From an uncultured Lachnospiraceae bacterium (GTDB lineage Bacteria > Bacillota > Clostridia > Lachnospirales > Lachnospiraceae), in contig CACZJZ010000006.1 in assembly GCA_902781655.1 (NCBI GenBank), forward strand, positions 124,001-188,000: DNA of 64,000 nt. Reading direction: 5' to 3'. The position numbers and the translations under genes were made by a program. Below are positions 55,973-62,129 of this stretch, one piece after another (the stretch's first letter is position 1; each line of letters starts with the position of its first letter). The notes under the pieces were generated by a model. That model ran no database searches. It was not told the DNA's origin and saw nothing but the letters and a program-made list of their open reading frames with translations.

Positions 55973-56026
55973 CCCCTCTTGTTAAATGATTGACAAAGAA
56001 TCATCCGGCGGAAGGAGGTGAAATTG

Positions 56027-56725
56027 ATGAACAGTATGGCAGATGCGCTGAACAAGGAGCTGAATGTCGATACCGCCTTTACTCTGCATCTAGGTCCGGT
56101 CAGTCTCCCATTTGCAGAATCTACGGTGATCAGCTGGGTTGTCATGGGAATTCTGGTTGCTCTGGTCCTGCTATTAACGCACGATCTCAAAGTCGAGAAC
56201 CCGGGCAAAGGACAGCTTGCGCTGGAATCCTTTGTGTGCTGGCTGGAAAGGGCGATCAAGAACATTCTGGGACCGGGAGCGGAGGAATACTGGATGTATC
56301 TCTTTACGGTCTGTCTGTTCATCGGCATGTCGAATATCATCGGTCTGCTTGGCATGAAACCACCCACAAAGGATCTGGATGTCACCGTGGCCCTTGCGGT
56401 CATGAGCATCGTTCTTGTGGAGGCGGCGGGTATCCGGGCAAAACATGTAAAGGGATGGCTTCACAGCTTCGCCCAGCCTATTCCGATCATCACGCCGATC
56501 AATATTCTGGAGATCGCGATCCGTCCTCTGTCTCTTTGCATGCGGCTGTTTGGCAATGTTCTTGGATCCTTCATCATCATGGAGCTGATCAAACATTTGG
56601 TTCCTGTGGTACTGCCGACCATATTCAGCCTGTACTTTGACATATTCGACGGATTTATCCAGGCTTACGTGTTTATCTTCCTGACAGGGCTGTATATCAA
56701 GGATGCTGTCGGAACGGAAGCATAA
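56027..56725 (+). CDS. atpB: ATP synthase subunit a
   Basis: A 232-residue Fo subunit a. The essential arginine of the ion path is Arg173 in SLCMRLFGN, and AQPIPIITPINILE and the last helices (FIQAYVFIFLTGLYIKDA) are typical. The ATG eight bases after AAGGAGG is chosen; an in-frame GTG at 56018 overlaps the ribosome binding site. It is the first gene of the operon; no atpI is seen before it. Confidence 0.96.
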   Translation: MNSMADALNKELNVDTAFTLHLGPVSLPFAESTVISWVVMGILVALVLLLTHDLKVENPGKGQLALESFVCWLERAIKNILGPGAEEYWMYLFTVCLFIGMSNIIGLLGMKPPTKDLDVTVALAVMSIVLVEAAGIRAKHVKGWLHSFAQPIPIITPINILEIAIRPLSLCMRLFGNVLGSFIIMELIKHLVPVVLPTIFSLYFDIFDGFIQAYVFIFLTGLYIKDAVGTEA

Positions 56726-56729
56726 GCAT

Positions 56730-56813
56730 AGGAGGAAAGCATTTTTGTTCAGAAGGGAAGGCGATGCCTTCCGCGCGGGCCGCAGCAGGATTGCGGCGGA
56801 AAGGAAATTATGA
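56730..56813 (+). promoter_or_regulatory. Orphan Shine-Dalgarno and coupled mini-ORF before atpE
   Basis: AGGAGG (56730-56735) is followed after nine bases by TTG (56745) opening a 22-codon frame whose TGA overlaps the atpE ATG (ATGA). The frame encodes an Arg-rich peptide. Hairpins GAAGGC/GCCTTC and GCCGC/GCGGC lie inside. It may tune the high translation needed for subunit c. Confidence 0.35.
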
Positions 56814-57031
56814 GCTTAACAGCACTTGGAGCAGGTATCTGTGCACTGTCCGGCATCGGTGCCGGTCTTGGAATTGGAAACGCTACGGCAAAGGCCTGTG
56901 AGGCCACTGCGAGACAGCCGGAAGCGTCCAGCAAAATTATGACGCAGCTGCTGCTTGGCGCGGCGCTTGCAGAGGCAACTGCCATCTACGGCTTTGTTCT
57001 TGGCATTCTGATCATCTTTATGGTCAAGTGA
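56810..57031 (+). CDS. atpE: ATP synthase subunit c
   Basis: A 73-residue two-helix proteolipid forming the rotor ring. The glycine-rich first helix (GAGLGIGNATAKA), the polar loop ARQPEA and the ion-carrying Glu55 in LAEATAIYG are clear. The Na+-type ligands Gln (helix 1) and Ser after Glu are replaced by Asn and Ala, so proton coupling is more likely. AAAGGA lies upstream of the ATG. Confidence 0.97.
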   Translation: MSLTALGAGICALSGIGAGLGIGNATAKACEATARQPEASSKIMTQLLLGAALAEATAIYGFVLGILIIFMVK

Positions 57032-57077: not shown

Positions 57078-57569
57078 GTGTTAAGGATTGATATCGATGT
57101 TTTATATACAGTTATCAACCTTCTGGTTCTGTATTTCCTGATGAAGAAATTTTTATTCGGCCGTATCGACAGAGTGCTGAAGGAGCGGGAGAAACTGATC
57201 CGGAAGAATTTTGACGACGCGGACGCTGCGAAGGCGGATGCGGAAAAAGAAAAGGCGGCCATCGAAGCACAGCGGGCAGGCATAGAGGAAGAACGTACCA
57301 GAATGCTGGAGGAATCCAGAAAGAAAGCTGCCGCGGAGTATGACCGCATCGTGGGAGATGCCGGTCGGAAGGCTGCTTCGATTGTAGAGCAGGCGAAAAC
57401 AAGAGCCGCCAGAGATGCAGAGGATCAGAAAAAGGATACGATGGATCACATGGCGGATCTGGTTGTGGATGCCACCTGGAAACTCTCCGCGAAGGAGGGC
57501 ACGCCAGACAGCCGCCTGTATGATACCTTCACGGAGCAGCTTCAAAAGGAAGCTGCATCTGCAGGCTGA
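57078..57569 (+). CDS. atpF: ATP synthase subunit b
   Basis: A 163-residue stalk subunit with one N-terminal membrane helix (about 8-25) and a long Ala/Glu/Lys/Arg-rich helix for dimerisation. The GTG start is eight bases after GGAGG. It ends 20 bp before the alpha gene. Its normal length shows it has not absorbed delta, unlike the mycobacterial b-delta fusion. Confidence 0.95.
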
Positions 57570-57589: not shown

Positions 57590-59365
57590 ATGACGAGTAA
57601 GGAGCAGATCGGACGGAAGGCAGAGCTTGTTTATGCCACCGCGCCGACTCCCGAACAACTGTCCTCTCTCCAGGAAGCGGTCAGACGGCGCTACGGGCTT
57701 AAGCCAGGAGAGCTGGAACTTGCCACGAGGGAGGACAAGTCTCTCGGAGACGGTTTTATCCTGCATGTCGGAAACGATGTGTACGACTGGAGCCGGGCCG
57801 GGAGGCAGCAGCAGTTTCGGGATTTTATTGAAAAAACCAGACAGGATGAGGCTCTGAAGAATCAGGAGATCATCTCGATTCTGAAGACAAGAGTCGAAAA
57901 TTTTGAGCTTCAGGCCAAAAAAGAACAGGTCGGAACAGTCGTGCGGGTCGGTGACGGTATTGCACGTGTCACAGGACTTGATCTTGCGATGTACGGAGAG
58001 GTAGTTGTCTTCGATTCCGGCGTCAAGGGAATGGTTCAGGACCTGCGCGTAGATTCTGTCGGTGTCATTCTGTTCGGTCACGAGGATGAGGTCGGAGAAG
58101 GAAGCCGCGTGGTCCGCACGGGAAAGCGTGCCGGCGTACCGGTCGGAGAAAAATTTCTCGGCAGAGTGATCAATGCGCTGGGGGAGCCGATCGATGGGCA
58201 GGGAGAGATCCGCGAGGACGAATACCGTCCGATCGAGGAACCGGCGCCTGGCATTGTGGACCGCAAGCCGGTGACAGAGCCCCTGCAGACGGGTATCCTG
58301 GCAATCGATTCCATGTTTCCGATCGGAAGAGGTCAGCGGGAGTTAATTATCGGAGACCGGCAGACGGGCAAGACCAGTATCGCAGTCGATGCGATCATCA
58401 ATCAAAAGGGAAAGAACTGCACCTGTATTTACTGTGCGATCGGACAGAAGGCGTCCTCCGTGGCGCACCTTGTACAGACCCTGACAGAGACGGGAGCCAT
58501 GGCCTATACCACCGTCTGCTGCACCACAGCTGCCGAATCCGCTGCGCTTCAGTATATCGCCCCTTATGCGGCCACTTCTCTGGCGGAGTATTTCATGCAC
58601 CGCGGACAGGATGTGCTGATAGTCTATGACGATCTTTCCAAGCATGCGGTGGCATATCGGGCGCTTTCCCTGCTACTCGGCAGAAGTCCGGGACGTGAGG
58701 CGTATCCCGGCGATGTTTTCTATCTCCACAGTCGCCTCCTGGAGCGTTCCAGTCACCTCTCCGATGCACTGGGCGGCGGATCCATTACGGCGCTTCCGAT
58801 CATAGAGACGCAGGACGGAGATGTGTCAGCCTATATTCCGACTAACGTGATTTCCATCACAGATGGTCAGATCTTCCTTGAGAGCGACCTGTTCTTCGCC
58901 GGTCAGCGGCCGGCGATTAATGTGGGACTCTCTGTCTCCCGTGTCGGAGGCGCCGCACAGAAGAAGGCGATGAAGAAGGCCAGCGGTTCTCTGCGAATTG
59001 ACCTTGCGCAGTATCGGGAAATGCAGGTCTTCACGCAATTTTCCTCGGATCTCGATGAGACCACGCAGAACCAGCTCGCCAACGGAAGAGCCCTGATGGA
59101 GGTACTGAAGCAGCCTCAGGCGCATCCGCTCACGATGGCCGATCAGGTTATCACTTTGATCGCCGGAACAGGCAGAGTCATGATGGATGTGCCTGTGAAG
59201 TCAGTGAAAAAATTCCAGTCAGATCTGCTGAACGATATGCATGTGCACCACGCGGATGTGATGGAAAACCTGGAGAAAACCGGAACTATGGATGACGCGC
59301 TGCAGAATAGAATTCTGCAGTATGCGAAAGACTTCCATGATGAGTGGATGAAACAGGTATCGTAA
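57590..59365 (+). CDS. atpA: ATP synthase subunit alpha with N-terminal delta-like domain
   Basis: A 591-residue alpha subunit, about 85 longer than usual. Residues about 90-591 are ordinary alpha: [27 protein letters not shown], Walker A GDRQTGKT (255-262) and the C-terminal helical domain. Residues about 13-82 match the C-terminal domain of subunit delta/[22 protein letters not shown], then the [17 protein letters not shown] core (52-68) with a following Gly-Arg. No separate atpH gene lies between atpF and atpA (20 bp) or elsewhere in the operon. The ATG follows AGAGGAG. The delta-like assignment is by motif reading and should be tested. Confidence 0.95.
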
Positions 59366-60264
59366 TGGCGACAACCAGAGAAATCAGAGAGCGGATCAGC
59401 TCCATCGACGACACCCTTAAAATTACCAACGCGATGTATCTGATTTCCTCAACAAAGCTGCGCAAGGCAAGAAAGGCGCTCGCAGACACAGAGCCGTATT
59501 TTGACATGCTACAGCTGCAGATGGAGCGGATTATGCGCCATCTGCCGGAGGATTTCACACATCCCTACCTGGATTCCCGGGCGCATGTGGCCGATGAGAA
59601 CCTGAGGCGGGCTGTGATCGTCGTGACGGCGGACAAAGGCCTTGCCGGTGCATACAATCACAATGTCCTGAAGATGGCGGAGAGAGATATCCGTCCAGAT
59701 GCGGATGACATGCTCTTTGTGATCGGGGAGACGGGGCGTGTGTATTTTCAGTCAAAGGGAATTCATATAGACGAGCAGTTCCATTATACGGCACAAAATC
59801 CGACGATCCATCGCGCAAGGAGCATTGCGTTCCGGATGCTGGACCTCTATGAACAGAAGAAGATCGATGAGGTTTTTATCCTCTACACCCGGATGATGAG
59901 CAGCATCGAGGCGGAGCCGCGCATTATGCAGCTTCTTCCGCTCAGTAAGCTGGTATTGAACCGGCCGGAGGCCGCCGGAGTGGCTGATGTGTATCAGGAA
60001 GCGTTTGAACTGATTCCCTCTCCCCGGGAAATCATCGAAAATCTCGTGCCCAACTATCTGACCGGTTATATTTTCGGCGCGCTTGTGGAATCCTACTGCT
60101 GCGAGCATAACGCCCGCATGATGGCGATGGATGCCGCCGGGAAGAATGGCAGAGAGATGAAGCAGAAGCTCAGCATTGAATACAACCGGCTGCGGCAGGC
60201 GAAGATCACACAGGAAATCACAGAGGTCTGTGCCGGCGCAAGGGCACAGGAGAGACAAAATTGA
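59365..60264 (+). CDS. atpG: ATP synthase subunit gamma
   Basis: A 299-residue central shaft subunit. The N-terminal helix (TREIRERISSIDDTLKITNAM) and C-terminal helix (EYNRLRQAKITQEITEVCAGA) that form the coiled-coil axle are conserved, as is VTADKGLAGAYNHN. The ATG overlaps the alpha stop by one base (TAATG), so translation is probably coupled; no strong ribosome binding site is seen. Confidence 0.96.
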   Translation: MATTREIRERISSIDDTLKITNAMYLISSTKLRKARKALADTEPYFDMLQLQMERIMRHLPEDFTHPYLDSRAHVADENLRRAVIVVTADKGLAGAYNHNVLKMAERDIRPDADDMLFVIGETGRVYFQSKGIHIDEQFHYTAQNPTIHRARSIAFRMLDLYEQKKIDEVFILYTRMMSSIEAEPRIMQLLPLSKLVLNRPEAAGVADVYQEAFELIPSPREIIENLVPNYLTGYIFGALVESYCCEHNARMMAMDAAGKNGREMKQKLSIEYNRLRQAKITQEITEVCAGARAQERQN

Positions 60265-60284: not shown

Positions 60285-61685
<1,401 letters not shown>

Positions 61686-61703
61686 ATGTGGGAGGAGCAG
61701 ACA

Positions 61704-62129
61704 ATGGCAGAGGCAGCAAAGACGTTCCGGCTTGACATTTTGTCTGCGGAACACGATATTTACCGCGGCAGGGCGGTTGAGCTGATTTTTCCTGCCATGG
61801 ATGGCGGTCAGGTCGGAATTCTGCCGGGACATGCGGCTTTTATCGGAGTGCTCAGTCCCGGCGAGCTTGCCTATAAGACGCCGGATGGAGGCTGGCACCG
61901 CTACGCGGTGAGCACCGGATCGATTTCGATGGCCAATAATCGCTGCATCATCCTTCCGCAGGCAGCGGAGACGCCCGGGGAAATTGACGAGGTCAGGGCG
62001 AAAGAGGCAAGGGATCGTGCCCTCGAAGCGCTGCGCCAGAAGCAGAGTATCATGGAATATAAGCGCACGCAGGCTTCCCTGGCGCGGGCGCTCACCAGAT
62101 TGAAGATCAAGGGCGGGCATTATATCTGA
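61704..62129 (+). CDS. atpC: ATP synthase subunit epsilon
   Basis: A 141-residue epsilon subunit with the N-terminal beta sandwich (FRLDILSAEHDIYRG, VGILPGHAAFIGVLSPG) and two C-terminal helices that can inhibit hydrolysis. The ATG eight bases after GGAGG is chosen. It is the last gene of the operon and is followed by a 30-bp inverted repeat. Confidence 0.95.
   Translation: MAEAAKTFRLDILSAEHDIYRGRAVELIFPAMDGGQVGILPGHAAFIGVLSPGELAYKTPDGGWHRYAVSTGSISMANNRCIILPQAAETPGEIDEVRAKEARDRALEALRQKQSIMEYKRTQASLARALTRLKIKGGHYI

Follow-up and report, generated by a model that had tools for sequence, protein, structure and literature searches.

A delta C-terminal domain fused to the alpha subunit of an F-type ATP synthase in a Lachnospiraceae genome and its relatives

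The window analysed in this study, a stretch of 64,000 nt from an uncultured Lachnospiraceae bacterium, revealed a complete F-type ATP synthase operon with the order a-c-b-[deltaC-alpha]-gamma-beta-epsilon, in which the N terminus of the alpha subunit is a delta C-terminal domain without the delta N-terminal domain. Based on the analogy to an enzyme engineered in the same way, each alpha subunit would supply a docking domain for b, and b2 stalks and a-subunits are most likely present in more than one copy, three at most, a reading that we regard as probable rather than certain. The operon consists of the following genes:

56018..56725, + strand: atpB, subunit a, 235 aa, GTG start (PF00119, E 3.2e-42)
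56810..57031, + strand: atpE, subunit c, 73 aa (PF00137, E 1.3e-19)
57078..57569, + strand: atpF, subunit b, 163 aa, GTG start (PF00430 over residues 9–133, E 1.1e-12)
57590..59365, + strand: atpA, deltaC-alpha fusion gene, 591 aa, ATG start (ORF reading, PF00213, TIGR00962)
59365..60264, + strand: atpG, gamma (PF00231, E 3.2e-89; the listed ORF begins at GTG 59344)
60288..61685, + strand: atpD, beta, 465 aa (PF00006, PF02874, PF22919)
61686..62129, + strand: atpC, epsilon, 147 aa, C-terminal helical domain present (PF02823, PF00401)

For gamma, translation more likely begins at ATG 59365 than at GTG 59344. As stated in the first-pass annotation of this DNA, the operon holds no delta gene, and only 20 nt separate the stop of atpF (57569) from the start of the fusion gene (57590), whose ATG is preceded by AGGAG 4–16 nt upstream. 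Within the fusion protein, the following regions were distinguished:

57617..57820, + strand: delta/OSCP C-terminal domain, residues 10–77 (PF00213 positions 104–169 of 172; AF2 model and Foldseek)
57821..57859, + strand: linker, residues 78–90, comprising the end of the last delta helix and a connector (pLDDT 58–71)
57854..59344, + strand: alpha subunit proper, residues 89–585 (TIGR00962; PF02874, PF00006, PF00306)
57860..57898, + strand: putatively retained alpha N-terminal helix, residues 91–103 (alignment; AF2 at low confidence, pLDDT ~56–58)

The match to TIGR00962 covered the full core (residues 89–585) with 756.6 bits against a cut-off of 484.45, and since it begins at residue 89, the window alpha carries about 88 extra N-terminal residues. 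About 85 such residues had been read as a delta/OSCP C-domain from the letters alone, and this assignment was borne out by sequence profile and fold. PF00213 matched the whole protein with 25.3 bits (cut-off 22.3) at C-domain positions only, and the N-terminal 102 residues, searched alone against this delta/OSCP family as had been suggested, gave a significant match of 28.7 bits (E 1.6e-6). Positions 1–103 of the model, representing the helical delta N-domain, were without a match in the window protein, and none of five unfused control alphas matched PF00213 at E <= 0.1. A small custom delta HMM of 11 sequences missed the window domain and L043-like rows at E < 0.01, both of which are detected by PF00213, and neither a fused model nor a delta model appeared among the 25 of 36 NCBIfam matches listed for the window protein.

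An AF2 model of residues 1–106 displayed the order beta-alpha-beta-beta-beta-alpha, with pLDDT values of 80–89 over residues 11–70 and a mean of 71.5. Foldseek against the PDB resulted in 26 matches at E <= 0.001, every one a chain from ATP synthase entries, and the chains named by sequence search were delta, OSCP (subunit O/5), b-delta and, once, a 'multifunctional fusion protein'. Given this mean pLDDT and query TM-scores of 0.44–0.54 in the top 26 matches, the fold match is clear, not tight. The N-terminal helix of alpha seems to be kept behind the linker, judging from the alignment and a part of the model with low confidence.

The source genome (2.76 Mb, 99.5% complete, 53 contigs) was searched as a whole with PF00213 at E <= 0.1, which resulted in two matches only, both to the C-domain and both inside alpha ORFs, while no separate delta and no delta N-domain was found. 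The earlier statement that a stand-alone atpH is missing was thus supported by the whole-genome search. The second of these matches lies in a second operon:

C9:4730-11317 (locus L210): second complete F-type operon with deltaC-alpha, each subunit matching its Pfam family

Its products are a (293 aa), c (131 aa), b (172 aa), deltaC-alpha (583 aa), gamma (300 aa), beta (529 aa) and epsilon (137 aa). The ORF for c shows about 64 residues ahead of the c domain, resembling a signal peptide and spacer. PF00119 matched twice in the genome, namely window atpB and the a gene of the C9 operon. A search with a fused-alpha profile (3 of the 11 initial candidates scored) revealed only the window and C9 alphas at E <= 1e-100, both of them fused. 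The remaining PF00006 matches comprised the two betas, V/A-type A and B (C14), a FliI-like (C7), a Rho-like (C10) and a weak one (C4), the ORFs on C7, C10 and C14 being named by reading or size. On C14 (locus L211:2015-9818), three ORFs (710, 592 and 460 aa) resemble, when read by eye, V/A-type ATPase subunits I, A and B; the cell may therefore have three rotary ATPases. The genome also harbors an Rnf/NQR-type gene (PF03116), which fits an anaerobe possibly running on a small ion gradient and is only suggestive.

Profile A3, built from 34 fused N-termini with that of the window protein among them, was compared with the PDB sequences, and the best match was chain 9jc1_I, a delta plus alpha subunit (E 2.4e-11); since 96 profile positions align to 95 residues, the linker lengths of the natural fusions and of this chain are nearly equal. 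It belongs to a Bacillus PS3 FoF1 engineered by Ueno et al. 2025 (PMC12229609), in which delta residues 2–104 were removed and residues 105–178 fused to alpha. The resulting delta-deltaN-alpha enzyme is described there as carrying up to three stalks and a-subunits, on average about two by SDS-PAGE, with triple-stalk particles being very rare in cryo-EM; its H+/ATP was 5.8 compared to 3.0, and it synthesizes ATP at lower membrane voltage. The authors argue that the delta N-domain, located on the three-fold axis, restricts the stalk number to one, and section 6 states that every ATP synthase so far has one a-subunit. Engineered enzyme and window protein thus share the delta C-domain on the alpha N terminus, the missing delta N-domain and a near-equal linker. 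They differ in that the engineered one had its epsilon C-domain deleted and its multi-stalk structure shown, whereas the window enzyme is natural, has an intact epsilon and is only proposed to be multi-stalked.

The Discussion of the same paper also names natural cases, namely in Acidaminococcus fermentans and UniProt G4Q3K6 and A0A1I2C5T3, so that the first-pass annotation was mistaken in knowing of no described example. By this description, they likewise have delta on alpha with the delta N-domain missing, and natural multi-stalk enzymes are predicted there, awaiting verification. These are other organisms, whereas the window genome carries the fusion in two separate F-ATPases. No further paper on a delta-alpha fusion was found by searches of the open-access full-text literature, judging from titles, the beginnings of abstracts and, in two cases, passages, and the passages considered of PMC4154653 (2014, evolution of the ATP synthase complex) contained nothing on it. 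The window is a further case of an architecture already in print in 2025; new compared with the literature searched are its breadth, the full-length delta-alpha fusions with apparently repeated loss of the delta N-domain, the purifying selection on the extension, and the finding that 34 of 55 fused genomes checked were without another delta.

Two other known arrangements were compared. As in the mycobacterial b-delta protein (PDB 7jg5, 'ATP synthase subunit b-delta'), delta is merged into a neighbouring subunit, but its partner there is b, whereas the partner of delta-C in the window is alpha, with b forming a protein of its own (163 aa). A b-delta fusion was rejected for the window, as atpF is an ORF of its own whose product gave no PF00213 match. 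N-type ATPases, which are F-type relatives, are likewise not known to have a separate delta gene, and their gene order starts with beta-epsilon and includes atpQ/atpR. The window operon shares with them the absence of this gene; its assignment to the N-type was rejected based on a score of 608.5 bits to the alternate F1Fo alpha model TIGR03324, below the cut-off of 750.5, and on its ordinary F-type order.

We propose that a delta-C domain on each alpha N terminus replaces the separate delta and grasps the b2 stalk at its C-terminal ends as delta ordinarily does, while the peptide bond would substitute for the grip of the delta N-domain on the alpha N termini. That a covalent link would make the delta N-domain unnecessary had already been suggested in the first-pass annotation and is a reasonable inference. 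If all alphas from the operon are fused, each F1 would present three equivalent docking domains for b, and its three-fold axis would be free of a delta N-domain; the earlier suggestion of three delta-C domains on each F1 therefore stands provided that all three alphas are fused ones. Since nothing would then restrict the enzyme to one stalk, more than one is most likely, and extra stalks would raise H+/ATP and permit ATP synthesis at low proton-motive force. The natural enzyme would thus be multi-stalked with a raised H+/ATP, as is its engineered relative. Apart from the engineered enzyme, this reading is supported by the domain assignment, by a genome search that revealed no other delta and two alphas that are both fused, and by the purifying selection on the extension and the repeated origin of the architecture in relatives (see below).

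The earlier annotation had added that perhaps only one of the three domains docks to b. In such an enzyme, two delta-C domains would be free or cap the F1 crown and H+/ATP would be ordinary. The genes for a and b are single-copy in each of the two operons, which speaks for one stalk; the engineered enzyme, though, probably derives from a single-copy operon as well. To our knowledge, no stoichiometry has been measured for any natural fused enzyme, which counts against a reading with several stalks, as do the C-domain retained by the window epsilon, which the engineered enzyme lacked, the rarity of triple-stalk particles in the published cryo-EM, a candidate internal start in the C9 gene and a patchy distribution within the genus (see below). 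Docking of a single domain is possible, but the same architecture took two stalks on average, and up to three, when engineered, and the proposed limiter of stalk number, the delta N-domain, was apparently lost repeatedly following fusion. Taken together, we consider a single stalk in the window enzyme the less likely arrangement, though one to be taken seriously.

In regard to distribution, genes were counted as fused if they matched a junction profile (A4) from position 40 or earlier, without a stop and with a frame of at least 500 aa. Of 391 genomes sampled from the class of the window genome, 218 gave an alpha match at E <= 1e-100. Among the junction-profile matches listed (E to ~7e-22), 42 genes were fused, spread over 41 genomes and 18 families; since G118 surfaced as an additional fused genome, the class total is at least 42 of 391. 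Two fused genes, L149 (G139) and L101, were counted though their frames end early on the alpha side. Among 398 genomes of the phylum, 13 outside the class were fused, in 6 families (leaving out G636, a 246-aa edge piece); ten of these 13 loci were fetched and read, and all 13 gave a PF00213 match there. Overall, PF00213 matched 100 of 100 fused N-termini from the class, the phylum and other loci, near copies included, at E <= 0.01. Comparison with atp operons of related genomes, as proposed earlier, thus yielded fused frames in dozens of them, and the same 591-aa ORF in the nearest named record, the 98%-identical MAG RUG554 (L041, uncultured Lachnospiraceae).

Whole-genome searches were performed for 55 fused genomes (35 + 20; G301, searched alongside, is not fused). 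No other PF00213 match above the cut-off was found in 34 of them, including the single-contig genomes G084, G131, G207, G335 and G468, while the remaining 21 additionally contain a full-length delta, which presumably belongs to a second, ordinary operon. A read-through PF00213 match (29–170) in G207 was considered as a split delta N-domain and rejected, since its upstream portion is the b subunit. In the genus of the window genome (37 genomes including its own, many of them incomplete; E <= 0.001), 9 genomes contained a fused frame and 23 a full delta; 3 genomes had both and 8 had neither, so that the fusion is patchy even inside the genus. This pattern, with the fusion only in some, a separate full delta in most and both in few, hints at two ancestral operons or at transfer.

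Two forms of the fusion were detected. The C-only fusions comprised 575–654 aa (two with shortened frames), while 20 loci harbored a full-length delta ahead of alpha, with 669–690 aa counted from the first possible start:

Full-length delta-alpha fusions: L042, L045, L051, L052, L054, L055, L057–L060, L082, L084, L121, L122, L139–L144

Several fusions showed features of their own. In L133 (G163, fusion ORF start 1564), NEMSDNEFRSRVASATNG occurs three times in tandem at the N terminus, ahead of delta-C. L148, L151, L152 and L153 carry an insertion of about a dozen residues within delta-C, directly before the YDW motif. In L166, L167, L168 and L170, the distance from start to Walker motif exceeds that of most other C-only fusions by about 20–50 residues, the extra length apparently sitting between delta-C and the alpha barrel.

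Phylogenetic trees were built on the alpha part only, with the delta trait excluded. The 76-row tree leaves out L041 (the window twin), L062 (N gap), L148, L150, L151 and L153, which escaped the selection pattern, and near copies (88% identity cut), whereas near copies were removed at 85% identity in a 98-row tree. In the former, C-only L043 was sister to the full fusions L054 and L058 (support 100/100) and C-only L125 to full L051 (100/99), while C-only L050, L061 and L056 were placed within an eight-row clade holding five full fusions (100/99). A constraint uniting the 51 fused rows to the exclusion of 25 unfused ones, as a single fusion event would demand, was rejected (p-AU 1.1e-44), and so was one uniting 10 full fusions to the exclusion of 12 C-only rows (p 8.5e-51); both p-values flatter, because the tree was already known when the groups were defined. 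Fused versus unfused required 9 changes on the 98-row tree (bootstrap 8–10), 6 of them forced by well-supported branches, and fusion therefore arose, or was reversed, several times. Locus L106 (3727-3945, G831) harbors a free delta-C of 72 aa, flanked by b and alpha, which gave the sole PF00213 match of that genome. The locus is nested among fused relatives; it was scored as 'separate' and therefore raises the change count. A second candidate for a free delta-C, L162 (G115, ~228-705), was rejected as a full delta with a frameshift, probably an assembly error, and stands as 'separate' in the trees.

The simplest reading of these topologies is that the delta N-domain was lost after fusion, several separate times; alternatively, gene-end exchange between lineages may explain the mixed clades. 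Full-length fusions are predicted to be single-stalked, because only one of three delta N-domains fits the axis, and their existence indicates that fusion alone need not imply many stalks. Under the model of Ueno et al., the retained N-domain would fill the axis once and allow one stalk, so that a one-stalk fused enzyme is likely in these relatives. Loss of the N-domain would lift this limit. Its recurrent loss fits selection for more stalks, but also a relaxed need for the domain once the covalent link makes it redundant.

The extension itself is under purifying selection in the relatives. Its median dN/dS was 0.10 (alpha: 0.04), and all 31 usable pairs gave a ratio below 1. The ratios came from 35 hand-chosen, non-independent pairs, of which 4 were saturated; for pairs of full fusions, the delta N-domain counted as part of the extension. 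A decaying relic or an assembly error without function could be suspected from the modest PF00213 score of the window protein (25–29 bits), but the same ORF in the 98%-identical RUG554, the fused frames in dozens of other genomes, five of them single-contig, the complete operons and dN/dS values well under 1 make such an origin very improbable.

Another arrangement would arise if plain alpha were also made, by an internal start or by cleavage of the linker, as one delta-C-alpha together with two plain alphas would bring back the usual 1:3 ratio. Within 36 codons around the old alpha start, at least one ATG, GTG or TTG was present in 32 of 51 fused genes (19 with ATG), but none in the other 19, and an internal start with a Shine-Dalgarno match of at least 5 was detected in only three (L052, L056 and the C9 gene), whereas 13 of 25 separate alphas showed such a match across codons 1–25. 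In the C9 fusion gene, an internal GTG in the delta motif lies 10 nt behind GGAGGT, and translation from it could yield an alpha almost free of the extension. The only candidate in the window gene is a GTG in the equivalent position, likewise within the delta domain, which is not preceded by a Shine-Dalgarno match. Thus, a candidate downstream start for normal-length alpha, raised earlier as a possibility, was found with a Shine-Dalgarno match in the C9 gene and not in the window gene. Internal starts were rejected as a general explanation based on these counts, and we regard a mixed complex in the window enzyme as improbable, although the C9 start raises its odds slightly. In 49 of 51 fused operons, no more than 40 nt lie between the end of the upstream ORF (not b in L121) and the first possible start, leaving no room for a delta-N ORF; the gaps in L068 and L091 are larger.

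For annotation, these results mean that genomes seemingly without atpH may hide delta inside atpA, where it can be missed. Full fusions, C-only fusions, one free delta-C and unfused relatives provide natural matched comparisons for the limit on stalk number. If the fused enzymes are multi-stalked, c-ring size would not be the sole determinant of H+/ATP in nature, and ATP synthesis may be open to many anaerobes at membrane voltages so far considered insufficient. More broadly, and tentatively, multi-stalk, multi-a ATP synthases may be common in Clostridia of gut and rumen, having evolved several times, often via full-length fusion and subsequent loss of the delta N-domain, for ATP synthesis at low proton-motive force. 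If this holds true, stalk number would set H+/ATP alongside c-ring size.
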